From: Sipunculus nudus
Lineage: Eukaryota; Annelida; Sipuncula; Golfingiida; Sipunculidae
DNA length: 64,000 bases
Direction: 5' to 3'
NCBI GenBank assembly: GCA_026874595.1
Contig: CM049318.1
Coordinates: 58,190,250 to 58,254,249, forward strand
In this document: piece by piece, positions 1,949 to 53,900 of the stretch
Position numbering within the stretch: the stretch's first letter is position 1
Layout of the letters: every line of letters begins with the position of its first letter
Position numbers and translations under genes: made by a program
Notes under the pieces: model-generated
Told to the model about the DNA's origin: nothing
The model's database searches: none
The model's input: the letters and a program-made list of their open reading frames with translations, nothing else

Positions 1949-4900
1949 CTGCCAACACAACAAAATTATCAATATATGCATATATCGTTATCTAAACCTA
2001 ATGAATCAATTTACAATCTAAGGCTCAAGGCTTCCCCTTTCAAAGATGATAACTGAAACATACAGCCAGTTCATAAATTTAAACACAATCTAAGCTTATG
2101 TACACAGGACAACATATACACATGCAACTGTATTACACACTGAACTGACCACACATTTGTACAATATGACACCTGGGTATTAAATCTTAATTCAAATATA
2201 ACACTTGTATAAGATATAAACAATGTTCACTGACCCTCCAGTTGACCCTTGTGTTAAATGGCCAATTTGAACTTTGACCCTTTTTGCATATTCATCATAT
2301 ACAGCCGACTCATGCTGACATTTTGCAGTATGGCATTTCACGAGAGCAGATCTGCGGCGAGTATCAGCGATGACTGCTGAAGTCTTAGTGGAGGAGATAT
2401 CTGAATAAGAATATATAAAAGAAGACATTTAAAATCAACTTTTTATTGTTTCTACAGTTTATTAATCAATAAGTTACCATTCAGAGAAAATAAACTGCTG
2501 TAAATCTTACTAGATAAATGGGACCAAAAAGGTCCTCAATTAGGTCTCCACCAGCTAATGAAAATGGCAGGCCTATGGACATACCAGATGTTAGATTGAT
2601 CTAATATTTATCACCAAAAATAACCTGGTAATAGGGACCAAGCTTTAGAAAAATGATGGAAGTATACCTACAGGTTATTAACATAATGCATAAGAAAGGG
2701 TTTTAAAAATTTGTCTAGCAGCCATAAGATTTAACACATGTCTGAAATTTGAAAGGACACATTCCTTAATGGATGGTCTTCTTTCAAATTTTTCCCAAAA
2801 ATAAATCACTGATTGTACTCTGGTGGCAATATTTGATTTCCAGTTGGTCTGTAATTTGACAGGGTTAGAGTCCCCAAAAGCACCAATCATCATGATTTCT
2901 GTGAAATACAGGTAGATCAAGCATATTTTCTTTGAGATATTGTGTGCTAAAGAAAATCACTTATTGTGCTCTGGCAGCCAATCTGAATTCAGATAGGTCT
3001 GTCATTTGATAGCTATAGGGATGGTTCTCTCATAGACACTACCCGTCACTATGAATTTGAGAAATATCAAGTCAAATGTATTCTCTTGTAAAAAATAGTG
3101 CTCACTATAAAGAAAGCATCACTGACTGAAGGATGTAAGGAGAGATAATGTGATCACAATAGGGCACCCCTTCTCAAGCGGGGCCCTAATAATATGTGTG
3201 CTAAGTCACTTGTAAAACAAGGGACCCATGGGTCACGGCACTCAGCTGCTATATCTGATCACAAAATATGATTTGGAAGAGGGGGTAGACAAATGCTAGT
3301 TTTGTGTGGTAATATAAGCTGTATTATGATGATGTTGTTTAACTAATGTTATGTAAGATTTGGCCTGTATCTGGTGACCTCTGACCTTATTAACACTCAC
3401 GGATTTTGATGAGAATGTAATTCAGGTGGGCAACACTACCGTAGATCCCCCTTTTGCCACCGCGGCCATAAAATAATACATACAGCTGAAAATCCTGACT
3501 TATATTTCTCGACAAGGGATGTTGCTATAAAACACAGGTTAGGCTAAATTCAAACATGAACAAGAAACCTGACGGACCGCCGAGGCGCAACGGGCGATAA
3601 TAGGCTAAGGAAGGAGGAAGTGAATACTGAGAACGTATATTTAATGATACTGCATATTTGTATATTAATTTTATTAAATGTTAATTTTATAAAATGTAAA
3701 ACTGATATTTTAAACAGGCTTATATGTATTATAAAACTTTTCTGAGTCAGTCATAAACAACAGCCATTTTCATGCAATGATTAATAAAAAATCAATATTC
3801 ACTTGCCAAATTATGCACTTTAACCAGACTAACGGTTGTACCTATATTTGAGTATGGCTGCAATATCCGTAAAACATTATTTTAAGATATTTCTTGAACT
3901 TATCATTTCTTTTAAAATAAACTGTAAAACAAAAGATAACCAAAGACCATATGTTCTTCAGCAATTAAACCTGCGTTTGAGTTCAGCTACTTCTTCGTTC
4001 ATCACATTATCAATAGATGGGGTTGAAAGGTCATATTCTGACCAGCTAGTTCCATAATCTTTAAATACGGCACGTTTTGCTAGCAGAAGGTTCGGGCACC
4101 AGTGTGCATATATTATGAAAAGCAGGACCCTGGGGGTACACATAAAGGCTCGACACGGGATTCGCTTATTCAAAGGTTTTGTCAAGGTTGTTAATTGACC
4201 GACGTTGTATAGAGTGTAAATAAAAGCCATATGTTGGCTTTGATGTCCCATTGAAGTTTAATTAGCCGAGTTAAGGCGCAAGGTACCCCAAGGCCCGCTA
4301 GTTCCGTAATCATTGTATGTGGCATGTTTTTCCGATGAAGGTTCAGACACCATTTGGCATATATTATGATCAGCACAACCTGAGGTGTCCTAGCAATATG
4401 ATCACCCACGCGGGAAATTGTTTATTTAAATGTTTTGTTGTTAAATGACTGATGTTGTATAATGTCTAAATAATATTTAAATTACCGTCCTCCCATACAA
4501 TGCTTTGATGTCCCATTGAACTTTAATTAGCCAAGTAAATGACGCAAGATTCTCTGGCATTCAGTGATGTGTCAAATTAATTCCGTGGCCCTACTAGGAT
4601 TCGTCTTGGATGATTTGTCATAAACTGAACAAATTGTCATCTATTCTAATCGGGTAGATCAGGCGGTTTAACCAATTAATTAATTAATTAATTAGCAACG
4701 CCAATCAACATACACAGTTGCAACTGTTTTCCAAAACTTTTATGCCTGACCACATATCAGCATACTGCAACATACCGCTGCGTCCCCAGCTGCAGCCTAG
4801 CGTTTAAGAAAAGAACCTTTTTTCGCATACACCACCAGGCAATGGAACGTGGTGAGAATGTGGTGCAGCCATTAAGTAAGGTTTTGGGAAATTTTTAACT

Positions 4901-7900
4901 CCAGTAAAGGAGCCTTCCAGATATTTTATGAACATGGGGTGCCGCCATTAGACGACGTGCTGCGGTAAAACGCAGATCTACGGTAGTTGTAAATATGTAT
5001 AATGAGTTTCTTTTGGGCAAGTCACCAAGGTTCCTCGAAGTGCTGTGACCTCTGACCTCATTAAATGTGCATGGATTTCGCTGGACATTTAACTGTATGC
5101 CAAATTTTGGATCTATAGGTCCAACCATTTTAAAATGTGCCAGTTTAACAGACGGACGGGACCATCACCTTAGCTCAGGTGACTTATAGTCAGCTGAACT
5201 AAAAATGTTTATACATGTATATTATAACTAGTGGCAAATTAGAAGTAGATGTTTGTTGTTATTTCAGTGATTAAATTTCAGTTATAAAAAATCTGCAAAA
5301 AACTGAAGTGATTTTTGGCTTGCTCTGCTTACATATGATGGAACTGTAGGAAATTCCTGTTAACAAGGGTCCTTTTAATGTCTCTGTGTAAGATTGTCTG
5401 TCTACAAGCTGTTAGTAAATATGGTACGTGCCCCATAGTTGTAAACAAATTAACTGAAAAGTCACTTATTGCAAAATGACATTGGAAAACTGTGTCTTAC
5501 TTTCTACCAGAAAGTCCTTCTTTGAACTGTCTGGATTATTTTGGTTATAACTACTTGTCCACAAAGTGCAACTAAATGCAGTTTTCTTTTAAAATGTTAA
5601 TACTTTTATTTGCTCATGCAGACATGTTTTCATATGTGTTGCGTATATTTTCTTTGAATAAGGTACAACAGTGTCAATTGTAACCAACAAATGTGGCTGG
5701 TGGGTGTAATGGAAAAGTCCTATGAACTGTACCACTTGTCAACAAGAAAAAATCAACAAAATTTTTTTTTAAAGTAGCAAACTTTGAAAAATTCCCTGAT
5801 TTTTTCTCTGACTTTCAGTTGGTTTTGGACAAGCAAAGATGCCAATTTTGTATTTAGCCTAATAAACGTGATTTTACAGCCAACCCCAACCAAAACTTTA
5901 TTTAAATAAAACAATATATGTAACACAAAAGGAATACTTTAGATCCTGTTGCTCAGTATGAAAATGTATAAAAAATATTTTAAAGAAACAAGTTAATTAC
6001 AGGGGCAGTGAAAGTTCTGCCTAATATTCTGCAGTGAGTAGTGAAAGCTGTGAAAACCTTGATCAGCTGAATGCCACAAGGGATAAAGGTAGACTCAGAA
6101 TAGAATACAGTGGAACCTGTCTGAAGGACCACCTGTCTTATAAGACCACCTGTCTATTAAGACCACCCTTAGGTGAACCAAAAGCATTCACATTGGTTAT
6201 AACTGACCTGTCTCATAAGACCACTTTTGGGCAGCCCCATGGAGGGTCTTATATCACAGGTTTAACTGTGTATAGTGTTTGGGTGGTAGAGAAGGATAGG
6301 GGGATTTAGAATTTTGTATAAATTGCATTGAATATCCAGATGCATCGCATTATTCTGAATGTTATATATTAACCAAATTTTAGGTTTCTGATGAAAATGT
6401 TTACAGTTGGTCTTAACCAGAAATTGTGCATCATAGAGGATGCTGGTCAAAATAATAAAATTAAGTGGGTTTCACGAGTACATTCACTTACAAATATATG
6501 AACTTGATACCTTGAACAGTGTATGAGTTACAGCTAGGAATACAATTTTTAGACTGATAATGATAGTTGCAATAAACAATATTACCTATAATTCCAATAT
6601 TGTATTTAAAACAGTTTTTAATGCACCAGGATTTATTACACATGTACTTTTATCATGAAATAACTAGGGGTGTGCAATATTATCTACCGGTAAATATCAG
6701 TATATTGTGAGACGGTGATTCGCATAATGCGTATCACAAGACAGTTTTCAAATACTGATATTATTCGATATTTTGTTAAAAGTGCTTAAAACTGATTTTT
6801 ATAGTAAAATAATGTTTCAGTTGTAATTTCAGACATCTAATTGAGCTTGGATTAATAATAGGCTTGAAGTGTAAGCCACTACCGTGTCTTCAGACGTTTA
6901 GCAGGAAATGTTCAGTTTGGATTGATATACCAAAGATCACAGGTTTTTTTTACTGCTCCATGACTAATTGGTATACGAGAAATAATACGATAAGAAGTGT
7001 AGAACACTGTCATAATAAAGAAATTATTCATTAATATTCTGTCTTGTCATTTTATGATTACTGCAAGAAGACAAAGAGTCGAGTTTCAGTATTATTGTAT
7101 AAGAATAGCAGCCTTGCCATGTAGTACATGGCTGTGATTGTTCACACCACCTATCTCTCTCTATGCAAAACCACAGTGCAGAATTATCTAATTGACAAGT
7201 TATTTGCACATTTAAGGCTACAGAAAACTTTGATTTTAAATGGTTTTCTTTGGGTATTGCCAACTACTAGTGAGTACTTTATGAAGTGTGCATTTGTTCG
7301 TAATATTTTACCCTTTACTGTGTGCAAATTCAAGAAAGTGCATTCTATTAAAGTGGCACCTAGAACCTTGAATCATGTGGTTAGATATTCTGAGGTTAAA
7401 CATATTTATTTTCAGATCTAAAGATTCCCTCAACCCTAAAGTGAACCCTCTCAGTAGGAACTGTTTAAAATTAGGCAATGATATAACAACTAGAGCAAGA
7501 TATTTACTGTAATGTAAATGTGAAGAGTGTCAAAATTTGTACAAAATTAAAAATAAATGTGAACAGGAAAGGGTAAAACATGATAAAGAATTAATAATCA
7601 CAAAAATATTAATAATCTATATATATTTGTAAAAAAAACCTCACTTATTTACTATAAATTTAATACAAAGATAATACTGCAATGTGCATTGCAATATGTT
7701 ACCACATATCCCTATTTATTGAAAAAAGTATAAACAAAACTCTTGCCTGAAAAAAGTATTGTACTTTAAAAAAAGTATAATGTGGTAGCAGTGCAGTCCT
7801 GTTTCTGTTATGATGTCCATATTTGCCCTGATTAGAGTACAAGTATGGTCATTACCTTGCTCTTGTATCTCCTGTTCTAGCTGTTTAATGTCTTTTTCCA

Positions 7901-10900
7901 GGTGGTTTGTTGCTGATAGCGTGTGTTTTAGTTCATCTAGCAACTGTCTCTTCTTCTCTTGTAGTTCGGCTTTTTCTTGTGAGTACTGCTCTGTCGATCC
8001 AAACCTGACCGTGTACTGTTGAGAAGCTTTCTGGCGAGCGTGTCTGAGTATATGTCAAGGTATAGGGGCTCGATATTAACTTTTGATAGTACTTGCCCAG
8101 TAGGGCAATGAAAGTCTAGATTTTACTTGCCCTGAATGCATGAACGTTTTTTGTCCCACCAAAAATCAGTCATCTAAGCCTCAAACACAAAAAGTCTGTT
8201 CCACATGATTATTGCAAAATGAGCATGTTCAGATTTTTGTATTTTAATAATATTTCATTATAGCATTTACACTGATAAACCTACAGGTAATTTAAGACAG
8301 AAGTATTACAATATATTAAAATCATTTATCAAAGAAAGAAAATGGCTAATTTAAGATTAGTTAAGATTCAGGCCTCTGTGCCTCTATCAAGCAAGTAGGA
8401 CCCTATTTTTGGTTTCCATGTTTCTGGTGTTTCGATCAGTATTTTGCCCGCCTCCATCCCCATGTTTAATACACATGGTTACAACAAAATGAACAGTCTG
8501 TGTGTGGTGGGATCAGCATTTTCTAGCATCAATTTAAAAAAACGGTTCAGGGATTATCTTTAGATTTTAATAGATGTCAGATATCTGAATAAGCCCCTTT
8601 AAGTTGATATACCTGTAAATGATTGAGATGCTACATCAGACAAGGATACATAGCCAAGTTCTGCTTCACCTTCCGAACATACCTGGGAACAGAAATACTT
8701 AAAATAATACAACTGATCTCCATAGTGTTCAGTAATTTATATTAGTTCTGATTAAGTGTCAACTATCCGAAAATTAAATTTTTAACAAACCTGAGTAAAA
8801 GTATAAAATATTACAGCATGAAACAGCTGATACTTTCATTCCTGAATTGAATATTTGATTTCCCAGATCCTGGACTTATTTTTTTTTATCTGTTCCTCTT
8901 AGGCATCTACACTGGAACACAAACATTTGTTGCTTGCCAGAATCAAGGATTGGGCTAGCATACCGGTAAATTCTGAATGTTTGTCTGTTAAGTATGCTAG
9001 ACTAAACTATGCATTAGTTCTAAACACTGTATCTAATGATCAGATGCTAAACCCTTGAATTTTTAGTATTGTATTCCATCCAAACAAGTTAAAGATAAAG
9101 TCGGAGCCACTGGCGAGAGCTCAAGCTCTCGTCATCTTGTTTACTTTGATGAAGGGTTAAAGAATCTCAGCTGACAGGATAGCTAGCACTATTTCGACAC
9201 CCTGACATTTAGAGTGTCTACAGAAAGTGTCAGAAAATGGTATCTCAGGTGGCCCCATAAGCAGGTTAAAACTTCTTGTGATTGGTTCCTTTCGGCTTAT
9301 TTTTATAAAAACAAAAAAATTGGATGCTAGGTGTCCTTGCTGGATTTGTTTGGATTACAATTCGTGGTCATTTTGGCGGGTACCACAAGTTTAACACAAG
9401 GGATATAAACAAAACAGACAGCCTGTACACTGTAGGATTTGCACTAGTTGGGTTATAATAATAAAAGGTTCTACAAATTGTTTATTTTATAAATGTAAGA
9501 TTACAAAATCGACCCCTTAAATGTAGGAACATAGAGCCTGAATATTTGACAAAATAGGAACTAGGTTTAGATCGCAAATCATACATGATATACCCACTCA
9601 GCATGATGGACGTGTCCAATCACCCACTTCCAAACATCAACAGAGGGTCCCCTGCAAATCCTGAAGGAAAAAAAACAGTCAAATGTTACAGCGACACTGC
9701 TTTGTCAAATGAAAAACACAAAGTGTACAAAAATAAAGTATATAAGCATAGCAAGGAATCTTCTGAAGACTGTTTCTGTGACATCATATATACTTACAAT
9801 ATCACCTACAATTCACTGCAAGATAAGCTTAACATGTCATTTAAAGGGCTTTTCAAGATGGCACACCTTGAATGTAAATATTACTTACAACAAGAAATAT
9901 ATATATATATATATTACATAATAAATTCAATATTTTTTCTCAAATTTTTTGTAAGAGACAGAGCAAAAACAATATAATTGTATACATTTGGTGAATGAGT
10001 GCTTTAAACTGAAAGAAAAGCAACTGACTTTGGTAAAACTCAATGCACCATCAATAATCACACCCTCCTCATGCAGCAGGTATTCACTGCAGTCATCTCT
10101 GATTTCCTTTGCTTTAACCGCTGTAATCAGACCACCAAGAGCATGGTATCGCATTGTGCACCCAGCCACAAATTTTAAACCCTGTGACATCTGTTCTAGT
10201 CGGTCTGTTTCTTGGCCCTAGGCCAGAAATGGTGTAATCAGACCAATAAGAGTGAGTGCTGCACACTCTAATTTGGTCTTATTACAATTCTTTGCTCTGT
10301 GTCAGCCCTGGTGGTGGAACCCAGAGAATCTTGTTATACAAAGCTTTCTAGATTAATGCACAGAAGTCATTACTTGTTGTCAAGATACTAGAGTGTAAAT
10401 GAGGTTCCACAGAGGTTTCAATATTTTGGTTGCGAATGCAGAAACAAACTGTCCTACAACCCGTTTTCATGAACATACCAGTAATGGTTGTAAACAAAAT
10501 CTAACTTACCTGTTTAGGTCTGAGACTGTGGGTAGTACAGCATTACTAACCAGTTTCAGGGACTGAAATACTTTGAAATTTTCACCGTTCCAACGGAAAG
10601 GCATTAATATAGATTTGCCTTTCTGCAGAAAAATTTCCCATTCTGCGTAAGATGCATCTAAATATCACATTAGACTTTCAGTCACACTTTGCTCAGTGTA
10701 AACCTTATTCTACCATCTTACATGCCATCCTTCTTGCAGACTAGCAAGAATGGTTTAAATAGTATGACTATTATATCAGAAATAAGACTATGCAGGGAAA
10801 AAATTGAACAATATAGGAGAATGTCAGAAAGCAAAAGAAATTATAGACCATTTTATTGGGAAATACAAGTTGGAGGAACACCACCTATAAAATATTTTGT

Positions 10901-13900
10901 TTTTTTTCTCGTCATGTTTGTTACTATCAGCTACTAATAGGGAAAACATCTAGGTGTTCTTCTTTTCAATGGATTGGTACAAAATGAAAAAGGTCTTTCA
11001 GTGGGGGTGTTTGCCTCTCAGAGACGGGTAGAAAGGCATTATTTTGACTCCTGAGTTTGGGTCCTAGACTGTAGATGGTTAAGCATTACTTACCTGTTTA
11101 GGTCTAAGACTGTGGGTGGTTTAGCATTACTTACCTGTTTAGTTCTAAAACTGTGGGTGGTTTAGCATTACCTACCTGTTTAGGTCTGAGACTGTGGGTG
11201 GTTTAGCATTACTTACCTGTTTAGGTCTGAGACTGTGGGTGGTTTAGCATTACTTACCTGTTTAGGTCTAAAACTGTGGGTGGTTTAGCATTACTTACCT
11301 GTTTAGGTCTGAGACTGTGGGTGGTTAAGCATTACTAACCTGTTTAGTTTTGAGTGGGTTTAGCATCACTTACCCGTTTAGGTCTAATAACTGTGGGTGG
11401 TTTAGCATTACTTACCTGTTTAGGTCTAAGACTGTGGGTGGTTTAGCATTACTTACCTGTTTAGTTCTAAAACTATGGGTGGTTAAGCATTACTAACCTG
11501 TTTAGTTTTGAGAGGGTTTAGCATTACTTTCCTGTTTAGTTTTGAGAGGGTTTAGCATTACTTACCTGTTTAGGTCTGGGACTGTGGGTGGTTTAGCATT
11601 ACTTACCTGTTTAGGTCTGAGACTGTGGGTGGTTTAGCATTACTTACCTGTTTAGGTCTGAGACTGTGGGTGGTTTAGCATTACTAACCTGTTTTGTTTT
11701 GAGAGGGTTTAGCATTACTTACCTGTTTAGTTTTGATAGGGTTTAGCATTACTTACCTGTTTAGTTTTGAGAGGGTTTAGCATTACTTACCTGTTTAGTT
11801 TTGAGAGGGTTTAGCATTACTTACCTGTTTAGTTTTGAGAGGGTTTAGCATTACTTACCTGTTTAGGTCTGAGATTGTTGGTGGTATAACATTACTTACC
11901 TGTTTAGGTCTGAGACTGTGGGTGGTATAACATACTTACCTGTTTAGTTTTGAGAGGGTTTAGCATTACTTACCTGTTTAGGTCTGTGGGTGGTTTAGCA
12001 TTACTTACCTGTTTAGTTTTGAGAGGGTTTAGCATTACTTACCTGTTTAGGTCTGAGATTGTTGGTGGTATAACATTACTTACCTGTTTAGGTCTGAGAC
12101 TGTGGGTGTATAACAATACTTACCTGTTTAGTTTTGAAAGGGTTTAGCATTACTTACCTGTTTAGGTCTGTGGGTGGTTTAGCATTACCTACCTGTTTAG
12201 GTCTGAGACTGTGGGTGGTTTAGCATTACTTACCTGTTTAGTTTTGAGAGGGTTTAGCATTACTTACCTGTTTAGGTCTGAGATTGTTGGTGGTATAACA
12301 TTACTTACCTGTTTAGGTCTGAGACTGTGGGTGGTATAACATTACTTACCTGTTTAGTTTTGAGAGGGTTTAGCATTACTTACCTGTTTAGGTGTGAGAC
12401 TGTGGGTGGTTTAGCATTACTTACCTGTTTAGGTGTGAGACTGTGGGTGGTTTAGCATTACTTACCTGTTTAGGTCTGAGACTGTGGGTGGTTTAGCATT
12501 ACTTACCTGTTTAGGTCTGAGACTGTGGGTGGTTTAGCATTACTTACCTGTTTAGGTCTGAGACTGTGGGTGGTTTAGCATTACTAACCTGTTTTGTTTT
12601 GAGAGGGTTTAGCATTACTTACTCGTTTAGTTTTGAGATGGTTTAGCATTACTTACCTGTTTAGTTTTGAGAGGGTTTAGCATTACTTACCTGTTTAGTT
12701 TTGAGAGGGTTTAGCATTACTTACCTGTTTAGGTCTGAGATTGTTGGTGGTATAACATTACTTACCTGTTTAGGTCTGAGACTGTGGGTGGTATAACATT
12801 ACTTACCTGTTTAGTTTTGAGAGGGTTTAGCATTACTTACCTGTTTAGGTCTGTGGGTGGTTTAGCATTACCTACCTGTTTAGATCTGAGACTGTGGTGG
12901 TTTAGCATTACCTACCTGTTTAGGTCTGAGACTGTGGGTGGTTTAGCATTACTTACTTGTTTAGGTCTGAGACTGTGGGTGGTTTAGCATTACTTACCTG
13001 TTTAGGTCTGAGACTGTGGGTGGTTTAGCATTACTTACCTGTTTAGGTCTGAGACTGTGGGTGGTTTAGCATTACTTACCTGTTTAGGTCTGAGACTGTG
13101 GGTGGTTTAGCATTACTAACCTGTTTTGTTTTGAGAGGGTTTAGCATTACTTACCTGTTTAGTTTTGAGAGGGTTTAGCATTACTTACCTGTTTAGTTTT
13201 GAGAGGGTTTAGCATTACTTACCTGTTTAGTTTTGAGAGGGTTTAGCATTACTTACCTGTTTAGGTCTGAGATTGTTGGTGGTATAACATTACTTACCTG
13301 TTTAGGTCTGAGACTGTGGGTGGTATAACATTACTTACCTGTTTAGTTTTGAGAGGGTTTAGCATTACTTACCTGTTTAGTTTTGAGAGGGTTTAGCATT
13401 ACTTACCTGTTTAGTTTTGAGAGGGTTTAGCATTACTTACCTGTTTAGTTTTGAGAGGGTTTAGCATTACTTACCTGTTTAGGTCTGAGATTGTTGGTGG
13501 TATAACATTACTTACCTGTTTAGGTCTGAGACTGTGGGTGGTATAACATTACTTACCTGTTTAGTTTTGAGAGGGTTTAGCATTACTTACCTGTTTAGGT
13601 CTGTGGGTGGTTTAGCATTACCTACCTGTTTAGATCTGAGACTGTGGTGGTTTAGCATTACCTACCTGTTTAGGTCTGAGACTGTGGGTGGTTTAGCATT
13701 ACTTACCTGTTTAGGTCTGAGACTGTGGGTGGTTTAGCATTACTTACCTGTTTAGGTCTGAGACTGTGGGTGGTTTAGCATTACTTACCTATTTAGGTCT
13801 GAGACTGTGGGTGGTTTAGCATTACTTACCTGTTTAGGTCTGAGACTGTGGGTGGTTTAGCATTACTAACCTGTTTTGTTTTGAGAGGGTTTAGCATTAC

Positions 13901-16018
13901 TTACCTGTTTAGTTTTGAGAGGGTTTAGCATTACTTACCTGTTTAGTTTTGAGAGGGTTTAGCATTACCTACCTGTTTAGTTTTGAGAGGGTTTAGCATT
14001 ACTTACCTGTTTAGGTCTGGGACTGTGGGTGGTTTAGCATTACTTACCTGTTTAGGTCTGAGACTGTGGGTGGTTTAGCATTACTTACCTGTTTAGGTCT
14101 GAGACTGTGGGTGGTTTAGCATTACTAACCTGTTTAGTTTTGAGAGGGTTTAGCATTACTTACCTGTTTAGTTTTGAGAGGGTTTAGCATTACTTACCTG
14201 TTTAGTTTTGAGAGGGTTTAGCATTACTTACCTGTTTAGGTCTGAGATTGTTGGTGGTATAACATTACTTACCTGTTTAGGTCTGAGACTGTGGGTGGTA
14301 TAACATACTTACCTGTTTAGTTTTGAGAGGGTTTAGCATTACTTACCTGTTTAGTTTTGAGAGGGTTTAGCATTACTTACCTGTTTAGTTTTGAGAGGGT
14401 TTAGCATTACTTACCTGTTTAGGTCTGAGATTGTTGGTGGTATAACATTACTTACCAGTTTAGGTCTGAGACTGTGGGTGGTATAACATTACTTACCTGT
14501 TTAGTTTTGAGAGGGTTTAGCATTACTTACCTGTTTAGGTCTGTGGGTGGTTTAGCATTACCTACCTGTTTAGATCTGAGACTGTGGTGGTTTAGCATTA
14601 CCTACCTGTTTAGGTCTGAGACTGTGGGTGGTTTAGCATTACTTACTTGTTTAGGTCTGAGACTGTGGGTGGTTTAGCATTACTTACCTGTTTAGGTCTG
14701 AGACTGTGGGTGGTTTAGCATTACTTACCTGTTTAGGTCTGAGACTGTGGGTGGTTTAGCATTACTTACCTGTTTAGGTCTGAGACTGTGGGTGGTTTAG
14801 CATTACTAACCTGTTTTGTTTTGAGAGGGTTTAGCATTACTTACCTGTTTAGTTTTGAGAGGGTTTAGCATTACTTACCTGTTTAGTTTTGAGAGGGTTT
14901 AGCATTACTTACCTGTTTAGTTTTGAGAGGGTTTAGCATTACATACCTGTTTAGGTCTGAGATTGTTGGTGGTATAACATTACTTACCTGTTTAGGTCTA
15001 AGACTGTGGGTGGTATAACATTACTTACCTGTTTAGTTTTGAGAGGGTTTAGCATTACTTACCTGTTTAGTTTTGAGAGGGTTTAGCATTACTTACCTGT
15101 TTAGTTTTGAGAGGGTTTAGCATTACTTACCTGTTTAGTTTTGAGAGGGTTTAGCATTACTTACCTGTTTAGGTCTGAGATTGTTGGTGGTATAACATTA
15201 CTTACCTGTTTAGGTCTGAGACTGTGGGTGGTATAACATTACTTACCTGTTTAGTTTTGAGAGGGTTTAGCATTACTTACCTGTTTAGGTCTGTGGGTGG
15301 TTTAGCATTACCTACCTGTTTAGATCTGAGACTGTGGTGGTTTAGCATTACCTACCTGTTTAGGTCTGAGACTGTGGGTGGTTTAGCATTACTTACCTGT
15401 TTAGGTCTGAGACTGTGGGTGGTTTAGCATTACTTACCTGTTTAGGTCTGAGACTGTGGGTGGTTTAGCATTACTTACCTGTTTAGGTCTGAGACTGTGG
15501 GTGGTTTAGCATTACTTACCTGTTTAGGTCTGAGACTGTGGGTGGTTTAGCATTACTAACCTGTTTTGTTTTGAGAGGGTTTAGCATTACTTACCTGTTT
15601 AGTTTTGAGAGGGTTTAGCATTACTTACCTGTTTAGTTTTGAGAGGGTTTAGCATTACCTACCTGTTTAGTTTTGAGAGGGTTTAGCATTACTTACCTGT
15701 TTAGGTCTGTGGGTGGTTTAGCATTACCTACCTGTTTAGATCTGAGACTGGGTGGTTTAGCATTACCTACCTGTTTAGGTCTGAGACTGTGGGTGGTTTA
15801 GCATTACCTACCTGTTTAGATCTGAGACCGTGGGTGGTTTAGCATTACCTACCTGCTTAGGTCTGAGACTGTGGGTGGTTTAGCATTACTTACCTGTTTA
15901 GGTCTGAGACTGTGGGTGGTTTAGCATTAACATATCTTCCATGAGGTCTAAACCTCATCTGATTTATCAGCCAGTCATGAAGATCTGTGGCCAGATCACC
16001 AGCAGCCTTTCTCTCCAT
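1879..16018 (-). CDS. HAUS5: HAUS augmin-like complex subunit 5, 5' part (exons 1-6 of a longer gene)
   Basis: Augmin is an eight-subunit complex that binds spindle microtubules and recruits gamma-tubulin to nucleate branches; HAUS5 is one of its long coiled-coil subunits. I assembled six minus-strand exons from splice sites and frame. The joined product starts MERKAAGDLATDLHDW, then SDLNR joins ICRGPSVDVWKW, then HVHHAE joins YVRKVKQNLAMYP. That order and spacing match my recollection of the vertebrate HAUS5 N terminus, where an arginine and a Cys-Leu precede a D-x-W motif, then HVH, then a V-K-K-x-x-x-N-L motif. Exon 4 adds a heptad-rich coiled coil, as expected next in the family. About 220 residues are present, against roughly 630 in vertebrates; the remainder must lie left of position 1. 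Intron phases agree at every junction (2, 2, 2, 1, 2). Exons 1-4 are well supported, 5 and 6 less so. Confidence 0.8.
2235..2400 (-). CDS. HAUS5: HAUS5 exon 5 (probable; left edge uncertain)
   Basis: The acceptor TTATTCAG opens in phase 1, matching the end of exon 4. The peptide begins ISSTKTSAVIADTRRRSALV and continues through a basic, helical-looking stretch ending VYDEYAKR. This resembles the region after the first HAUS5 coiled coil, where a T-R-R motif also occurs. Two donors are possible: AAAAGG|GTCAAA at 2279, or GGAGG|GTCAGT at 2235. The second keeps phase with exon 6 and was chosen. Neither is a strong donor. Confidence 0.55.
4045..4550. repeat. Approximately 250-bp tandem duplication
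   Basis: Two diverged copies start at CTAGTTCCATAATC (4045) and CTAGTTCCGTAATC (4298). Each runs through a GGTTCRGRCACCA segment, a GCATATATTATGA segment and TTGATGTCCCATTGAA, and ends in TTTAATTAGCC. The spacing is about 253 bases. Overlapping minus-strand reading frames of 72-97 codons across it have no coding character. Confidence 0.6.
6106..6272. mobile_element. Small inverted-repeat element, Tc1/mariner (pogo)-like MITE
   Basis: About 167 bases bounded by TACAGTGGAACCTGT on the left and an imperfect inverted copy, ACAGGTTTAACTGTGTA, on the right. The interior carries repeated GACCACCTGTCTTATAAGAC motifs. Ends of the CAGTGGAACCTGTC type flanked by TA are widespread in animal genomes and are generally attributed to pogo/Tigger-derived non-autonomous elements. 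No transposase is present. Confidence 0.55.
7856..8043 (-). CDS. HAUS5: HAUS5 exon 4, coiled coil
   Basis: This is a 188-base exon with acceptor ACTCAG and strong donor GCAAG|GTAATG. It encodes 62 codons beginning HARQKASQQYTVRF and ending HLEKDIKQLEQEIQEQ. It is rich in Glu, Lys, Gln and Leu with heptad spacing, as expected for the first coiled coil of HAUS5, which packs against other augmin subunits. The start phase needs a preceding exon ending in phase 2, which exon 3 supplies with the GTAGCA donor. Confidence 0.75.
8044..9597. other. HAUS5 introns 2 and 3
   Basis: Introns on either side of the 48-base exon 3. I see no further exons, tandem repeats or inverted repeats of note. The exception is a small perfect hairpin near 9113-9130 (CGAGAGCT, 2-base loop, AGCTCTCG). 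Confidence 0.45.
8635..8682 (-). CDS. HAUS5: HAUS5 exon 3 (48-base microexon)
   Basis: The acceptor TTCCCAG is clear. Read in phase 2 it gives YVRKVKQNLAMYPCL, which corresponds in length and spacing to the V-K-K-I-R-G-N-L stretch after the HVH motif of vertebrate HAUS5. The donor is GTAGCA, weaker than consensus. It is preferred because it ends the exon in phase 2, as exon 4 requires; a GTATAT donor 23 bases further downstream would break the frame. The left edge is therefore less certain than the right. Confidence 0.65.
9598..9660 (-). CDS. HAUS5: HAUS5 exon 2
   Basis: This is a 63-base exon of phase 2 at both ends. A pyrimidine-rich acceptor (TTTTTCCTTCAG) precedes it, and a GTGGGT donor follows. 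It encodes ICRGPSVDVWKWVIGHVHHA plus split codons. The C-x-G-x-x-x-D-x-W core followed by H-V-H is the best family match in the window and is what identified the gene. The small plus-strand reading frame across it is a shadow. Confidence 0.8.
10029..10217 (-). CDS. Orphan 63-codon exon candidate inside HAUS5 intron 1
   Basis: The minus strand carries a 189-base open interval of phase 0 at both ends, between an acceptor (TCTGGCCTAG) and a GTCAGT donor. The peptide begins GQETDRLEQMSQGLKFVAGC and continues through HALGGLITAVKAKEIRDD to LLHEEGVIIDGALSFTK. Its composition looks protein-like, with mixed helix-forming residues and no low complexity. It does not belong to the HAUS5 chain: exon 1 to exon 2 joins in phase 2 and is complete without it. 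It may be an exon of another gene, a relic of a duplication, or a chance opening. I do not recognise the family. Confidence 0.35.
10502..10555. repeat. Solitary outlying unit of the HAUS5 splice-junction minisatellite
   Basis: One complete unit and part of a second (ACTTACCTGTTTAGGTCTGA onward, then CAGCATTACTAACC) lie about 500 bases left of the main array. They are more diverged than the array units and are separated from them by unrelated sequence. This suggests that the motif was duplicated locally before, or independently of, the big expansion. The coding-strand donor GTAAGT is intact in the first unit. Confidence 0.7.
11060..15929. repeat. Minisatellite of HAUS5 exon 1/intron 1 splice-junction units
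   Basis: About 4.9 kb of head-to-tail units in two main lengths. The 41-base type reads, on the minus strand, GTAAGTAATGCTAAACCACC then CACAGTCTCAGACCTAAACAG. The 34-base type reads GTAAGTAATGCTAAACCCTC then TCAAAACTAAACAG. Variants with TATAAC or TTGTTGG substitutions recur. Nearly every unit contains CAG|GTAAGT on the minus strand, the HAUS5 coding strand. The right-most unit is the last 38 bases of HAUS5 exon 1, so coding exon and array are continuous. A higher-order period of about 1,690 bases is visible. The identical plus-strand 67-codon frames at 12784, 13534, 14474 and 15224 are by-products of the repeat. Not a CRISPR array: there are no unique spacers. Confidence 0.95.
15894..16018 (-). 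CDS. HAUS5: HAUS5 exon 1, with start codon
   Basis: The ATG at 16018-16016 opens 41 codons plus 2 bases, ending at a perfect donor (AAACAG|GTAAGT). The upstream in-frame acceptor TTACAG at 16034 implies a 5' UTR exon further right. The start was chosen because MERKAAGDLATDL aligns with the vertebrate HAUS5 N terminus at the expected distance from the D-x-W motif. The last 13 codons (from VNAKPPTVSDL on) come from sequence that is also the minisatellite unit. The exon therefore ends inside the first repeat copy, with only the splice site separating coding from non-coding copies. Confidence 0.8.
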
Positions 16019-16033
16019 CTTACAGTAAGGATC

Positions 16034-17520
16034 CTGTAACATGACATGACATTACACACTTACACATTTTATTAAACACTTGCACTTTACTATTCTTGCA
16101 TTCAGACATGTCTGCACAAATTCATTAGGGATGAGTTTTCCATGAGTTGAGTTGACTGGTAGGCCAGGTTGACGTAATTAGCTTCTAATAGATGAAAGCT
16201 GCAAAAGACCCTTCATGAAACTAGGGAACCATGGGCCTTGATGCTCAGCTGAAATTGTCTATAACTAAGGATATTTTATGAACTTTTTTCAAGTTTGCCA
16301 TGTTTCAACTGTAAACCATATTCTGAACATCTGCTGGGGAATTCAATAACATTTCGGTAATTTCAAGGAAATAACATATTTTGTGACCCCCTTTGAGATA
16401 TTTTGTCTAGAACATTCAAATCTATTTTTAGTGACTAAAGGGGAATTTCCATTAGTTTAAAATAAAGTAGGGTGGGGAGTAGCTATATATGTGGCCTTAA
16501 CTAAGTCTTACTCCAGCCAGGGCCCCATGTGAGCACCCGGTTCTTGGGCTAGGTACAGGGTAGCCCTGGCTCCTGTGCTCTCCCTATGATAGACTGTCTG
16601 AGAGCCCTAGGTGATCCTTTCAGAAAACTAGAGACATTCCATTAGACAATAAAATTCTGATATTTCTGCAATATCCCCACTTGACAATAAAATTCTGATA
16701 TTTCTGCATTGTCTCCACTTAACAACAAATTCTGATATTTCTGCCAAAAGTGTTGTATTCATCATGAAACAAAGATATTTTATCAAATCATTTGACAAAT
16801 GTGAGTATGTGACATAGCACTTCAACATTTTCCACTTTTAATGTCATTCAAAAAAATATTGTCCTTATAAATATAAGGGGTGACAAGCTGTGAACAATGT
16901 CTGTTCTGGGTTTCTCCCAGCCTCAACTGGTGCCTTAGTACAATGTATTAATTGTAGGCATTGTGGCATGGTGAGCAAAGGTCACACAGGTCATTGTTTC
17001 AGATTCTGAGACAGTTTCAAGCAAAAGGATTACAAAGTTTTAAAAGTTAGTCTTTTTTTTCATACCTGAATAAAAAAATTTCCCAAAATTTTGGTCATTC
17101 AAATTAAGTACTATTTCTGCCTTTGATTACTTAAGGTTCCCTTTCATAAAAGCAATATTTGATTTTATACAATTTTTTTCCTGAAAGGGGTTTTAGGTAC
17201 TTGAAGTTTTCAATGCGGCAGTATCCAGTTTCTTAAACTGTCAGAATATTCACCAAAAACCATTGAAAACCAACCAAAAACACTGAAAAACCAATGTTTA
17301 AACTGAATTTAAAAGAAAATAATGCCAAAACATTGCATCTTCAAGATTATTCATTGAACCACTTTTAAAGTTTTGTACACAGTTTTCAGTACATGCTTTT
17401 AAATTTTATTCACTGAAACAAAAGATTTAGTTAATTTTATAAAATAAAACATCTTTTCAGATAAAGTTTACACACTGTTGGTTGAATGACAGATAAACAA
17501 TATCATTATGTTACCTACTA
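16034..17520. other. Non-coding stretch upstream of HAUS5 exon 1
   Basis: This should be a HAUS5 5' UTR intron, since exon 1 has its own acceptor at 16034. A short tandem triplication lies at 16640-16744: three copies of about 45 bases with the core AATTCTGATATTTCTGC. A weak relative of the GACCCATGGGTC repeat occurs near 16216-16250. Otherwise I see nothing. Confidence 0.5.
16640..16744. repeat. Approximately 45-bp tandem triplication
   Basis: Three diverged copies with the core AATTCTGATATTTCTGC separated by ATATCCCCACTTGACA-type linkers. Confidence 0.6.
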
Positions 17521-19131
17521 TCTGAGCTATAATTGTATCCGCCAAAACGAAGTTTTGCGGATACTATGTTTTTGACCGGGTTCCGCCGCCGCCGCCGCCG
17601 CCGCGTTCGTTTCCGGAGAACTCCTCTGAGACTACTGGACAGATTTTTCCGAAACTTACACAAATTATCGGGTCACATGTGAACTGGTGCCTAACCAAGT
17701 GACCTTGACCTCTGACCTTTCGTCTCTGCCCAGCGTCCGTTTGTGCGTCTGTTTCCACACATAAACCCATATATCTCGGGAACCGTTTGACCAATCCGGA
17801 AAAAATTTTTTACACAAATGTAGCCCTGGGAAAGCTTTATAACATACACAACAAAAGGTGGCGCCACCTGCAACCATGTTTGCACAGTGTCCATCTGTTC
17901 ATCTGCCTAGGGTTAAAATCACTCATATCTCTGCAGTGATTTGACTAATTCACCTAAAATTCGGCATGCATATACATCCTAGATAGCTTTCTCGATTTTG
18001 TGACAGGTGGCGCCACCTACATTCACGTTAAAGCTCCACACATAATCCCATATATCTCGGGAACCATTTGACCGATCCAGAAAAAATTTTTACACAAATG
18101 TAGCCCTGGGATAGCTTTATAACATACACAACAAAAGGTGGCGCCACCTGCAACCATGTTTGCACAGTGTCCATCTGTTCATCTGCCTGGGGTTATATCA
18201 CTCATATCTCTGCAGTGGTTTGACTAATTCACCTAAAATTCGGCATGCATATACATCCTAGATACCTTTCTCGATTTTGTGACAGGTGGCGCCACCTACA
18301 TTCACGTTAACGCTCCACACATAATCCCATATATCTCGGGAACCGTTTGACCGATCCGGAAAAAATTTTTACACAAATGTAGCCCTGGGATAGCTTTATA
18401 ACATACACAACAAAAGGTGGCACCACCTGCAACCATGTTTGCACAGTGTCCATTTGTTCATCTGCCTGGGGTTAAAATCACTCATATCTCTGCAGTGGTT
18501 TGACTAATTCACTTAAAAATCAGCATGCATATACATCCTAGATAGCTTTCTTGATTTAATGACAGGTGGCGCCACCTACATTCACGTTAACACTCCACAC
18601 ATAAATCCATATATCTCAGGAACCGTTTGACCGATCCGGAAAAATTTTTTACACAAATGTAGCCCTGGGATAGCTTTATAATATACACAACAAAAGGTGG
18701 CGCCACCTGCAACCATGTTTGCACAGTGTCCATTTGTTAATCTGCCTGGGGTTAAAATCACTCATATCTCTGCAGTTGTTTGACTAATTCACCTAAAATT
18801 CGGCATGTGTATACATCCTAGATAGCTTTCTTGATTTTATGACAGGTGGCGCCACCTACATTCAAGTTTATGCTGCAGACATCCAAGCTCATATCTCGGG
18901 AACCGTTTGACCAATCAGGAAAAAAATTTTACACAAATGTAGCCCTTGGATAGTTTCTCGTTCAAATAACAGGTGGCGCCACCTACAATCATGTTTATGT
19001 GGCAGAGATCCATTCTAATATTTAACACGTAACTCTATATCCCCTTGCCACTCAATCAATGCCTTACTTCACCCGTCCTTCTCTGATTTTGGCGGATACA
19101 CGTAGTCGCTTGTCGACTACCCGTATTCTAG
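17521..19131. mobile_element. Non-autonomous Helitron/Helentron-like element with internal tandem repeats
   Basis: The 1,611-bp interval fits the Helitron end rules. It starts TC after a host A and ends CTAG before a host T. A perfect 7-bp hairpin (GTAGTCG, loop CTTGT, CGACTAC; 19102-19120) lies 7 bases before CTAG. Just inside both ends are perfect 14-base subterminal inverted repeats, TGTATCCGCCAAAA (17534) and TTTTGGCGGATACA (19087). These, together with the internal tandem array, are features described for Helentron-associated elements (DINE-1/pearl type) in insects and bivalves. A GCC-repeat tract lies at 17581-17603. No Rep/helicase is encoded, so transposition would rely on an autonomous relative. 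Confidence 0.65.
17755..18985. repeat. 280-bp tandem array inside the Helitron-like element
   Basis: TGTTTGCACAGTGTCC recurs at 17877, 18157, 18436 and 18716, a period of 279-280 bases, giving about four and a half copies. Each unit carries two copies of the palindrome AGGTGGCGCCACCT and the phrases ATATCTCGGGAACCGTTTGA and GTAGCCCTGGGATAGCTTTA. Copies are 90-95% alike by eye, so the array is fairly young or homogenised. Confidence 0.85.
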
Positions 19132-21959: not shown

Positions 21960-24290
21960 AAACACTTAATGGTCAACATCCATGCAAAGAATCATAGTGA
22001 TTTCTGCATTAATTGTTCAGATACTTCAGCTTTTGAATCAAATTTTCCATTATTCTGAGGGATACTTCGGAGTCCTATAGCGTGAAGGATATGGGTAACA
22101 GAGACCTAATTTCAGATTTCCAAAGACACTCTCACGGGCCTCCTTGCATGACAAGAATGATGATTCTAGGTCCAGTTGTTACAATTTGTGCCATGTTAAC
22201 AGATGACAGCATCCTTAAAGGTCTCAAAAATAGAGAAAAAAATTCAAAAAAATTTAATACAATAAAGGTTGCATCATAAGTCTGAAGAAACTGATGAAAC
22301 ACTCCATAATCAATATGCATGTAAAGAATCATGGTGACCTCTGCATTAGTTGGTCAGATACTTCAGCTTTTGTATCAAATTGTCCATTATTCTGAGGGAT
22401 ACTTCGGAGTCCTATAGCTTGAAGGATATGGGAAACAGAGAACTAATTTAAGGTTTCCACAGACACTTTTCATGGGCCTCCTTGCATGACAAGAATGAAG
22501 ATTCTAGGTCCAGTTGTTACAATTTGTACCCTGTTGACACATAACCAAATCCTTAAAGGTCTTAAAAATAGAGAAAAAAAATTGTAAAAATGTGTAACAA
22601 GCCCCATAGCTTGAAGAATATAGGTAACAGAGACCTAATTCCAGGTTTCTAGGGAGTCTGCAGAAACTGATGAAACATCTCATGATCTCTTTGTATGAAA
22701 TTTTTGACTATTCTGGGGGGTACTTTGGGGCCCTACAGCATGAAGGATATGGGTAACAGAGACCTAATTTCAGGTTTCCATGGAGACTTTTCATGGGTCT
22801 CCCAGTGTGTCAAGAATGAAGATTCTAGGTCCAGTTGTTATGATTTGTGCCCTGTTAACAGATGTTCATATCTTTAAAGGTCTCGAAAATAGTGAAAAAA
22901 ATTTGTAAAGAATCGAAAAATACAGGTGGCGCCACCAGTCTGCAGAAACCTATGAAACACTCCATGATCAATATCCATGCAAAGAACCATGGTAATCAAT
23001 GCATTAGTTGTTCAGATATTTCAGTTTTTGTATCAAATTTTCATTATTCAGCGGGGGTATTTCAGAGCCCCATAGCTTGAAGAATCTGGTTAACAGAGAC
23101 CTAATTCCAGGTTTCCAAGGAGACTTTTCATGGGCCTCCCCCAATGTCAAAAATGAAGATTCTAGGTCCAGTTGTTATGATTTGTGCCCTGTTAACAGAT
23201 GACTGCATCTTTTAAGGTCTCAAAAATTGAGAAAAAAATCGTAAAAAATCGAAAAAATACAGATGGCGTCCGCAGTCTGCAGAAACTGATGAAACATCTC
23301 ATGATTAATATGTATGCCAAAAATCATGACCATCAGTGATGTATTTAATGAGATATTGAAGTTTTTGTATGAAATTTTTCACTATTCTGGGGGGTACTTT
23401 GGGGCCTCATAGCTCGAAGGATATGGGTAACAGAGACCTAATTTTTTATTTCCATGGAGACTTTTCATAGGTCTCTCAGAATATCAAGAATAAAGCTTCT
23501 AGATCCAGTCTTAACGATTTGTGCCCTGTTAACAGATGTCCACATTTTTAAAGGTCTCAAAAATAGAGAAAAAAATTTGTAAAAAATCAAAAAATATAGG
23601 TTGCGCAACCAGTCTGCAGAAACTGATGAAACATCGCATGATTAATATGTATGCCAAAAATCATGACCATCAGTGATGTAGTTAATGAGATATTGAAGTT
23701 TTTGTATGAATTTTTCACTATTCTTGGGAGTACTTTGGGGCCCCATAGCTTGAAGGATATGGGTAATAGAGACCTAATTTCTAGTTTCCATGGAGACTTT
23801 TCATAGGTCTCTCAGAATGTCAGGAATGAAGATTCTAGGTCCAGTCTTTACGATTTGTGCCCTGTTAACAGATGTCCACATTTTTAAAGGTCTCAAAAAT
23901 AGAGAAAAAAATTCGTAAAAAATCGAAAAATACAGGTGGCGCCACCAGTCTGCAGGAACTAATGGAACATCTCATGATCAATATGTATGCCAAAAATCAT
24001 GACCATCAGTGTTGTAGTTAATGAGATATTGAAGATTTTGTATGAAATGTTTTACTATTCTGGGGGGGTACTTTGGGGCCCCATAGCTTAGAGGATATGG
24101 GTAACAGAGACCTGATTTCTGGTTTCCAAGGAGATTTTTCATGGACCTCTCAGAATGTCAAGTTACAAGATTCTAGGTCCAGCAGTTACGATTTGTGCCA
24201 GGTTAACGGACAGACGGACGGACAAACGGACGGACGACGGACAAAGAGTGATCGTTATAGCTCAGATGACTTACAGTCAGCTGAGCTAAA
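21960..24290. repeat. 335-bp tandem array, element 1
   Basis: About seven diverged units of roughly 335 bases. Landmarks in each are CAGTCTGCAGAAACTGATGA, ATCATGACCATCAGTGATG, TATGGGTAACAGAGACCTAA, GATTCTAGGTCCAG and CAGGTGGCGCCACC. The array ends at a GGACGGACGAC-rich tract followed by the conserved terminus at 24243-24290, the same terminus as at 21915-21960. Confidence 0.8.
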
Positions 24291-25286
24291 AACTGATGAA
24301 ACACTCCATGATCAATATCCATGCAAACAATTATGGTAATCTCTGCATTAGTTGTTCAGATACTTCAGCTTATGTATCAAATGTTCCATTATTCCGAGCT
24401 GTACTTTGGAGTGCCATAGCTCTAAGGATATGGGTAACAGAGACCTAATTTCAGGTGTCATGGAGACTTTTCATGGGTCTCCCTGTGTGTCAAGAATAAA
24501 GATTCTAGGTCAAGTCATTACAATTTGTACCTTGTTGACAGATAACTACATCCTTAAAAGTCTCATAAATAGAGAAAAAAAATTGTAAAAATTTGAAAAA
24601 ATACAGGTGGCGCCACCAGTCTGCAGGAAATGATGGAACACCTCTTGATCAATATGTATGCCAAAAATCATGACCATCTGTATTGTAGTTATTGAGATGT
24701 TGCAGTTTTTTTTAATCAAATTTTCCATTATTCTGGGGGGTAATTGGGAGCCCCACAGCTCAAATGATATGGGTAACGGAGACCTTATTTCAGGTTTCCA
24801 TGGAGACTTTTCATAGGTCTCTCAATGTGTCAAGAATGAAGATTCTAGGTCCAGTCTTTACGATTTGTGCCCTGTTAACAGATGTCCACATTTTTAAAGA
24901 CCTCAAAAACAGAGAAAACAATTCGTAAAGAATCGAAAAATACAGGTGGCGCCACCAGTCTGCAGAAACTGATGAAACATCTCATGATCAATATGTATGC
25001 CAAAAATCATGACCATCAGTGATGTAGTTAATGAGATATTAAAGTTTTTGTATGAAAATTTTGACTATTCTGGGGGGTATTTTGGGGCCCAATAGCTCGA
25101 AGGATATGGGTAACAGAGACCTAATTTCTGGTTTCCAAGGAGATTTTTCATGGACCTCTTAGAATGTAAAGTTACAAGATTCTAAGTCCAGCGGTTACGA
25201 TTTGTGCCAGGTTAACGGACAGACGGACGATGGACAAAGAGTGATCGCTATAGCTCAGCATGACTGAAAGTCAGCTGAGCTAAAAA
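24291..25286. repeat. 335-bp tandem array, element 2
   Basis: Starts at AAACTGATGAAACACTCCAT directly after the terminus of the previous element and holds three more units of the same family. It closes with its own GACAGACGGACG tract and the ATCGCTATAGCTCAGCATGA terminus. Two elements are thus abutted head to tail. Confidence 0.75.
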
Positions 25287-43893: not shown

Positions 43894-43984
43894 AGAAGAT
43901 AAGCCTGTGCATGGAGAGATCACAGCGCATCCTTATGAGGACGAAGATCGTGGTGCCGATCTTCCACAGACCATAGACGGCTGA
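43894..43984 (+). CDS. Receptor tail exon E with stop codon, copy 1
   Basis: Acceptor CTTTTCCAG, phase 2, encoding EDKPVHGEITAHPYEDEDRG then ADLPQTIDG and a TGA stop at 43982. The last seven codons (PQTIDG-stop) lie inside the first unit of the 61-bp minisatellite that follows. Repeat expansion therefore starts within the coding sequence but does not lengthen the protein. Confidence 0.6.
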
Positions 43985-44690
43985 AACTCAACGTGGCTTA
44001 GTTCCAGGGGCGGATCCAGGATTTCCACAGACCATAGACGGCTGAAACTCAACGTGGCTTAGTTCCAGGGGCGGATCCAGGATTTCCACAGACCATAGAC
44101 GGCTGAAACTCATCGTGGCTTAGTTCCAGGGACGGATCCAGGATTTCCACAGACCATTAACGGCTGAAACTCAACGTGGCTTAGTTCCAGGGGCGGATCC
44201 AGGATTTCCACAGACCATAGACGGCTGAAACTCAACGTGGCTTAGTTCCAGGGGCGGATCCAGGATTTCCACAGACCATAGGCGGCTGAAACTCAACGTG
44301 GCTTAGTTCCAGGGGCGGGTCCAGGATTTCCACAGACCACAGACGGCTGAAACTCAACGTGGCTTAGTTCCAGGGGCGAATCCAATATTTCCACAGACCA
44401 TAGACGGTTGCGACTCAATGTGGATTAGTTCAAGAGGCGGATCCAGAATTGCAGTAGACTCTAGACGGCTACGACTCAAGCTGGTTTAGTTCCAGGGACG
44501 GGTAAAAAATATTCATAAACCATAGATGGCCAAAACTCGATGTGGTTTAGTTCCAAGGCGGATCCTGGATTTCCATAGGCCATAGACGGATACGACTCAA
44601 CGTGGCTTAGTTTCAGGGACGGATCCAGGACAGCCATAGACCATCGACTCGACATGGCTTAGTTCCAGGGGCAAGTTCAGGATTTAGGAA
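43964..44690. repeat. 61-bp minisatellite seeded by the receptor's last exon
   Basis: About twelve units of exactly 61 bases in the first half (starts at 43964, 44025, 44086, 44147 and so on), decaying to the right. Unit: CCACAGACCATAGACGGCTG, AAACTCAACGTGGCTTAGTT, CCAGGGGCGGATCCAGGATT, T. The first third is coding sequence of exon E including the stop. The last third is the start of the dispersed GGGGCGGATCCAGGATTT repeat. The unit is thus a fusion of exon end, 3' UTR and inserted repeat edge. Confidence 0.95.
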
Positions 44691-53065: not shown

Positions 53066-53900
53066 GCTGTCAGCAAATGGCTAGAGAGTTGCTGCCACCC
53101 AGTGTCTAGAGAGATGTCTAGAGAGATGCTGCCACCCAGTATCGTGAGAACCATCCATAAAAGTGATGGACCCTCTGTCCAGAGAGGTGCTGCAACCCAG
53201 TGTCCAGAGAGGTGCTGCAACCCAAAGTCTGGACAGGTGCTGCATTTTTTAGTGCCCAGAGAGATGCAGCAACCCTGTGTCCAGAGAGAAGCTGCTACCG
53301 AGTATCCATAGAGCTGTACATGTTAGTGCTGCAACCCAGTGTCCAGAGAAAGGCTGCAACCAAGTGTCCAGAGAGGTGCTTAAAATCAGAGATGTGCTGC
53401 CACCCATTGTCCAAAGAGGTGTGTAGCGAAGCGCTGCAACCCAGTGTCTAGAGAGATGCTGCACACAGTTTCAAGAGAGGTGCTGCAACCAAATGTCTTG
53501 AGAGGTGGTGCCAGCCAGTGTCTGGAGAGGTGCTGCAGCCCAGTGTCTGGAGAGGTGCTGCAACCCAGTGTCTAGAGAGGTGCTGGAACCCAATGTCCAC
53601 AGACGTGCTGGAACCCAGTTTCTAGAGAGGTGCGGTAACCCAGTGTCCAGAGAGGTGTTCCCAGCCAGTGTCCAGAGAAGTGCTGCAATCCTGTGTCCAG
53701 AGAGGTGCTGCAATACATTCTTACGAGATTGGTCCAGAAATGTGCTGCTACCAAGTGTGCAGAGAGGTTTTGCCATTCAGTGTCAAGTGAGAAGCCGCAA
53801 CCGGTGGACAGTGAGGTTACGACAGCCGGGGTTCAGAGGGCTGCCACCAGCCAGGGTCCAGAGAGGTCCTGCAAGCCGGGGAACAGTATCGCTAGTTCTG
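53066..53900. repeat. 25-bp minisatellite
   Basis: Irregular head-to-tail units of GTGCTGCAACCCAGTGTCCA then GAGAG, about 33 copies with many substitutions and a few insertions. Because 25 is not a multiple of three, all frames rotate; the several 60-134 codon frames here, full of CCNP/QRGAA or LSGHW-type repeats, are by-products. The array is followed by the left end of the third G-tract repeat. Confidence 0.9.

Follow-up and report, generated by a model that had tools for sequence, protein, structure and literature searches.

A minisatellite made of the exon 1 splice junction of HAUS5 in Sipunculus nudus

Introduction

How did one intron come to begin with more than one hundred copies of its own donor site, and do those copies have any role? 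This question is raised by a gene of Sipunculus nudus in a 64,000-nucleotide stretch of DNA (hereafter the window), in which an earlier reading of the letters without database searches (the sequence-only reading) noted a long minisatellite behind the first exon of HAUS5. Here we describe the gene, the array and its distal end, the other places in the genome where donor-bearing arrays occur, and the known systems with which they can be compared.

Results

The protein encoded on the minus strand is HAUS5. The profile search matched Pfam PF14817 with 63.1 bits against a cut-off of 25.6, and all 5 PDB matches with an E-value below 1e-5 were to augmin subunit 5, the next match having an E-value of 0.27, so the identification made in the sequence-only reading was borne out. 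The first coding exon (15894..16018, minus strand, 125 nt, phase 2, placed by translation and by the Pfam and PDB matches) ends in ...GACCTAAACAG|GTAAGT / ...GTCTCAGACCTAAACAG|GTAAGT. Exon 2 (9598..9660, minus strand) has a strong acceptor, TTTTTTTTCCTTCAG|G, and was placed by its in-frame join with exon 1 and by protein match; joining the exon 1 end at 15894 to the acceptor at 9660 yields ...VSDLNRICRGPSVDVWKWVIGHVHHA, in translation VSDLN-R-ICRGP. Exon 3 (8650..8682, minus strand, 33 nt), included in the query matched by PF14817, and exon 4 (7856..8043, minus strand), at the match C13:58198106-58198324, have inferred borders flanked by CAG and GT. Exons 1 to 4 can be read through without a stop, and CAG and GT flank all their inner borders. 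A later exon at 2222..2401 (minus strand) matches positions 111-170 of the profile weakly, with 14.4 bits, which is below the cut-off, but it is in order with the other exons. Later exons were also found with the Pfam model at C13:58181350 and C13:58155260, and their order and strand agree. The exons are thus spread over about 51 kb, so the gene is not a mere fragment. Immediately upstream of the ATG, 16019-16048 contains an acceptor-like TGTTACAG; the gene may therefore have a transcribed exon ahead of the first coding one.

The sequence-only reading had allowed that a HAUS5 transcript from elsewhere in the genome would make this gene a pseudogene. The N-terminal HAUS5 query, run against the 1.43 Gb genome with E-values up to 10, returned three pieces of the HAUS5 locus and two weak places with E-values of about 4, and the genome search with PF14817 gave one further place, on C4, with 17.2 bits, below the cut-off. 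No second HAUS5 copy was found by protein and Pfam search of the 1.43 Gb genome (G000), within the limits of its gaps and withheld stretches, and judging from these searches HAUS5 is apparently single-copy.

Tandem Repeats Finder (TRF) reports one main array on the minus strand at 11055..15929 (41 bp x 128.8 copies, score 5205), which we also followed by word counts and by comparing the sequence with shifted copies of itself. In the 41-bp unit, 36 bases from the very end of HAUS5 exon 1 are followed by GTAAG. The first unit (15889..15929, minus strand) is the exon end itself, recognized by its 36-base identity to the 41-bp unit, and holds the predicted productive donor at 15894/15893. The exon end and the intron start are therefore the repeat unit, as had been proposed, but 36 exon bases are identical rather than 38.

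The donor word CAGGTAAGT occurs 96 times in the window, every time (96/96) on the minus strand, compared with 0.61 on average and at most 4 in 100 shuffles. All but one of these copies (95/96) lie within the array; the remaining one is isolated at 10504-10512. Counting as donor-like any GT-centered 9-mer with at least 7 of 9 bases matching CAGGTAAGT, we found 127 such sites in the array: 95 exact CAGGTAAGT, 16 CAGGTAGGT, 9 CAGGTTAGT, and 7 others. The claim of more than 100 decoy 5' splice sites behind exon 1 thus holds. The statement that nearly every unit of 34 or 41 bases ends in CAG|GTAAGT comes to 95 exact sites of 127. Measured from anchor to anchor (n=127), 63 units are 41 bp long, 48 are 34 bp, and 16 have other lengths. 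In the 34-bp type, CCCTCTCAAAACTAAACAG replaces part of the exon copy. A genome search with the HAUS5 unit, which skips very common words, gave 52 matches in G000, all of them at the HAUS5 locus.

Reading on in the exon 1 frame through the first donor gives ...VSDLNR-stop, that is, AGG TAA, so each later donor would carry a stop. Frame translation therefore agrees with the earlier proposal that only the donor nearest to exon 1 is productive, giving VSDLN-R-ICRGP, and that the later ones run into AGG TAA. The immediate TAA is automatic, however, because this phase-2 exon ends AG|GTAA.

The PDB match also bears on the origin of the array. The AUGMIN5 sequence VPSIDAIRKICRG (AUGMIN5 being presumably the plant name) aligns with the HAUS5 exon end PPTVSDLNRICRG. 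This match to augmin subunit 5 of other organisms means that the end of the exon is the ancestral sequence, from which the array was derived. Together with the 36-base identity, this upholds the view that the unit is HAUS5's own splice junction.

Shift comparison shows that the array contains large internal repeats. A block of 1428 bp is found again 1690 bp further on (98.4% identical), and blocks of 680 bp and 831 bp recur at an offset of 750 bp with 96.9% and 97.4% identity. There are 33 distinct unit types among 128 units, and, judged by eye, types recur in the core and are mostly single-copy at the distal end. The block repeats at 750 and 1690 bp are the mark of past copy-number change and of ordinary minisatellite turnover.

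Between the array and the isolated distal copy of the donor word lies a dispersed repeat of about 470 bp (10585..11054, minus strand), with 40 scored places in G000 (from 1507 first-look candidates), the other 39 being 70-78% identical to it. Beyond it, word and sequence comparison recovered an isolated and diverged unit with CAG|GTAAGTT (10504..10556, minus strand), which is probably the former distal end of the array. From the order of these parts, the dispersed element seems to have split off the old end of the array, and it could serve to date the array.

By TRF there are other tandem arrays in the window, at 17754-18996 (280 bp x 4.5), 22031-25216 (337 bp x 9.5), 43962-44648 (61 bp x 11.3), and 53419-53713 (25 bp x 11.8).

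A genome pattern of three CAGGTAAGT at a spacing of 20-50 bases gave 406 matches, which on C1-C4 fall into 14 separate loci. Among the matches listed, we examined 18 loci: these 14, one on C5, and three from the single-word listing. At five of the 18 the array starts at an exon supported by a database match, namely L029 (thioredoxin domain, E 5.3e-11), L019 (3HCDH_N, E 9e-6), L017 (ABC transporter membrane region, E 4.5e-6, with 27 bits just under the cut-off of 28), L070 (TPR, E 1.1e-5, below the cut-off), and L026 (XPD helicase, E 3.6e-7 in PDB and no Pfam match). Weak matches were obtained at L016 (PH domain, E 0.016) and at L028 (DNA-PKcs, E 0.17 and no Pfam match, with 6/6 PDB matches being to DNA-PKcs). 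Four loci (L014, L015, L018, L027) have an open frame with no convincing match, at five (L022, L024, L025, L071, L072) no exon was seen by eye, and two (L021, L023) were ambiguous by eye.

At L026 (C3:48564200-48566400) the end of an XPD/ERCC2 exon is repeated as a 44-bp unit in 8 copies into its intron. At L019 and L020 (C2:37217000-37223700), 53-bp copies of the end of a 3-hydroxyacyl-CoA dehydrogenase-like exon extend over about 5 kb, as judged from the two ends of the tract, which makes this array similar in size to that of HAUS5. At L028 (C4:88722600-88726400, minus strand), a DNA-PKcs-like exon lies between two tandem arrays: a repeat upstream of the exon (39 bp x 3.8) that ends TTTAG|GGTGGGCATGA, and a donor-side array (37 bp x 54.5) whose unit contains both CAGGTAAGT and CAGGTATGT. 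Given the end of the upstream repeat, the acceptor side seems to have been duplicated too. Minisatellites abound in this genome, and exon ends other than that of HAUS5 have likewise become part of one, so the HAUS5 array is a large member of a recurrent class.

Are donors preferred as seeds of such arrays? On C1-C2 the donor word has 7 array loci, within the range of three control words of equal composition (2, 9, and 4), so by array count donors are no special seeds; of the nine loci of one control word, one coincides with the array counted for the donor at L014, and another two, separated by 25 kb, are nearly identical. Over the whole pattern search there were 406 matches for the donor, 166 for the reversed word, 561 for GATGACAGT, and 648 for AGTGACATG. 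Genome frequency, measured for the donor and reversed words of the four compared, is 15,332 occurrences of CAGGTAAGT vs 12,946 of its reversal. An excess of donor arrays, 14 loci vs 5 for the reversed word on C1-C4, had at first looked positive, and the two further control words removed it. At C1:5580370-5609849 and C3:21184501-21291059, control-word arrays are present as two and three nearly identical copies, separated by tens of kb, as if they had been segmentally duplicated together with their minisatellites.

A Pfam-recognized exon is present at 4/18 array loci vs 2/57 solitary CAGGTAAGT sites (one-sided Fisher p 0.027), with 11/18 array loci and 38/57 solitary sites scanned and the rest (L021-L025, L071, and L072, and 19 solitary sites with frames of less than 25 codons) counted as misses by default. 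In this comparison the two solitary hits were taken as two sites, and some of the "solitary" sites, for example L044, are in short repeats themselves. Upstream frames are also more open at array loci, with a median of 42.5 codons vs 32 at solitary sites (p 0.022). A mild preference of arrays for genes or real junctions is possible.

To look for selection on the donors, we ranked each 9-base window of the repeat unit by conservation (1 = most conserved). In HAUS5 the donor 9-mer ranks 16/41 in the 41-bp units and 31/34 in the 34-bp units. For nine arrays at eight other loci, the ranks are 23/29, 27/44, 11/42, 36/53, 12/53, 18/44, 3/38, 21/37, and 30/48; the rank of 3/38, close to the top, belongs to L027, and a tenth array, L018, gave no rank as its consensus has no full donor word. 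Across HAUS5 and these nine arrays, there is no consistent pattern of lower variation in the donor 9-mer. The likely coding frame past the first donor is open in 3/9 other arrays (L029 for 62 codons, L017 for 125, L018 for 71), and in the other 6/9 a stop comes within 20 codons in the guessed frame or, for L015 and L027, whose phase is uncertain, within 16 codons in all frames. With three of nine open for at least 62 codons, a premature stop is not a common design of these arrays.

Discussion

Arrays of this kind are known from lancelets. The lancelet "mirages" are minisatellite-like tandem duplications of exon-intron boundaries, hosted by Adh3, the globins BflGb6 and BflGb9, and troponin C, with similar repeats in PGBD5; many units have AG/GT signals, both 5' and 3' boundaries are affected, the edges of the clusters escape homogenization, and length is unstable, with BflGb6 haplotypes of 3 and 6 units (PMC3087553, PMC3902484). 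By RT-PCR, splicing is seemingly undisturbed (PMC3087553). The HAUS5 array resembles the mirages in that its unit spans the exon-intron boundary (36 exon bases plus GTAAG, the boundary being placed by frame and consensus), its units carry AG/GT signals (127 donor-like sites, 95 of them exact CAGGTAAGT), and, by eye, it has a homogenized core and diverged edge units. It differs in being from a non-lancelet, in having about 127 units rather than 3 and 6, and in being known from the DNA of one assembly, whereas the mirages were followed by RT-PCR. In searches bearing on a lancelet source, the muscle myosin exons of this genome scored best, with 176-178 bits, against the PDB chains 1dfk, 1dfl, 1b7t, 1kk7, 1qvi, 2ec6, 2os8, and 3i5f, which are from scallop and squid, and reached at most 151 bits with the chains that follow, a pattern that points to a probably molluscan genome; a GFP family search gave no hit, which is weak evidence, as its controls were silent too.

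In human CBS, a 31-bp VNTR, c.1444_1467+7(16_21), spans a donor and has 16-21 units, and in the 844ins68 allele, splicing of the duplicated junction eliminates the additional copy of the exon (PMC2630376). A donor junction is repeated in both genes, with a unit of 24 exonic plus 7 intronic bases in CBS, going by its name, vs 36 plus 5 in HAUS5. The CBS exon is internal and has 16-21 units, while the HAUS5 array is behind the first coding exon and has about 127, with a stop at every decoy. Tandem duplication of AGGT-containing segments is also said to give birth to introns (Rogers in 1989 and Zhuo in 2007). There, as here, tandem AG|GT copies create competing splice sites, but in HAUS5 the copies are located within an intron that was already there, and there is no sign of a new one with a copy at each end: exon 1 joins exon 2 in frame, and by eye no exon lies between them. 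Intron gain of that type is reportedly described for potato RdRp (PMC4974935). The sequence-only reading knew of no description of a coding splice junction amplified in this way; the lancelet mirages (PMC3087553, PMC3902484) and the human CBS repeat (PMC2630376) are close precedents. Our literature search found none in an augmin gene, and among the open-licence papers listed for bivalve minisatellites at exon-intron boundaries, none is a mollusc case by its title or the start of its abstract.

We therefore consider it likely that the HAUS5 array is a mirage-type minisatellite, tolerated since the first donor is taken, with the decoys passive. It would have begun when the 3'-terminal 36 bases of exon 1 were duplicated in tandem along with some 5-8 bases of the intron, a step for which GTTA, common to the exon and the distal intron copy, would suffice as microhomology. 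Unequal exchange or slippage could then have brought it to about 127 units, and the repeats at offsets of about 750 and about 1690 bp may reflect later block duplications. Since every copy lies beyond the first donor, within the intron, and that donor is intact, its use would leave the mRNA unchanged. Splicing would pick the first donor after the exon, by exon definition or by the order of transcription, and the decoy donors would then be passengers. First-donor use in HAUS5 is an expectation carried over from other animals.

The sequence-only reading had suggested that the array might sponge U1 or tune the level of HAUS5 through copy number, and neither role is supported, since conservation within the unit does not consistently favor the donor, unrelated genes bear such arrays, and the stop is not general. 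If the copies formed a rheostat, decoys used at some rate would lead through the TAA to nonsense-mediated decay, and more copies would mean less HAUS5 protein. The immediate stop at every decoy in the exon 1 frame and the 95 perfect donors among 127 are what one would expect of this. The human CBS repeat reportedly goes with reduced activity, to judge from the title of Lievers 2001. Lancelet mirages, however, seemingly leave splicing undisturbed (PMC3087553, PMC3902484). The stop is automatic in any phase-2 exon ending AG|GTAA, frames stay open for at least 62 codons in 3/9 other arrays, and the donor is not consistently conserved, so we regard a rheostat as unlikely. A related thought is that the array acts as a platform, its more than 100 intron 1 sites holding U1 snRNP on the nascent RNA and so blocking premature polyadenylation, or titrating U1. 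The full CAGGTAAGT, which 95/127 donors have, pairs fully with U1, and in vertebrates protection by U1 from premature polyadenylation is established. On the other hand, an abundant snRNP is unlikely to be titrated by a single locus, arrays occur in unrelated genes and 5/18 other loci have no exon by eye, and the donor again lacks consistent conservation; we find such a platform highly improbable.

Some units, notably the 34-bp type, might be zero-length recursive exons that regenerate the exon-donor junction, making a ladder of ratchet sites. In the 34-bp unit the pyrimidine stretch leads to AG|GTAAGT without an intervening AG, while in the 41-bp unit, whose pyrimidine tract is weak, two further AGs precede the 3' AG, at -18 and -12. 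We give this little credence; if it were true, the HAUS5 array would be a self-healing ratchet ladder instead of a minefield. Inflation of the copy number by the assembler seems very unlikely to us, even though assemblers err at long near-identical blocks such as the one here (98.4% over 1428 bp): each pair of block copies shows 21-23 mismatches, there are 33 unit types among 128, and the distal end is diverged. The copy number of the array may nonetheless be inexact. The 36-base identity between exon and unit could also have arisen if exon 1 had been captured from a foreign satellite, but this is contradicted by the alignment of the exon end with augmin subunit 5 of other organisms and by the restriction of the unit to the HAUS5 locus in G000, and it is almost certainly wrong.

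With a mirage-type minisatellite as the preferred reading, such arrays would then be no oddity of lancelets, as they are recurrent here at real exon ends, for example those of HAUS5 and XPD, and probably DNA-PKcs. The main-type units of HAUS5 share 36 bases upstream and several bases downstream of the donor, which makes the contributions of position and of local sequence testable by RNA. The HAUS5 array is thus a natural experiment on how a choice is made among identical 5' splice sites.
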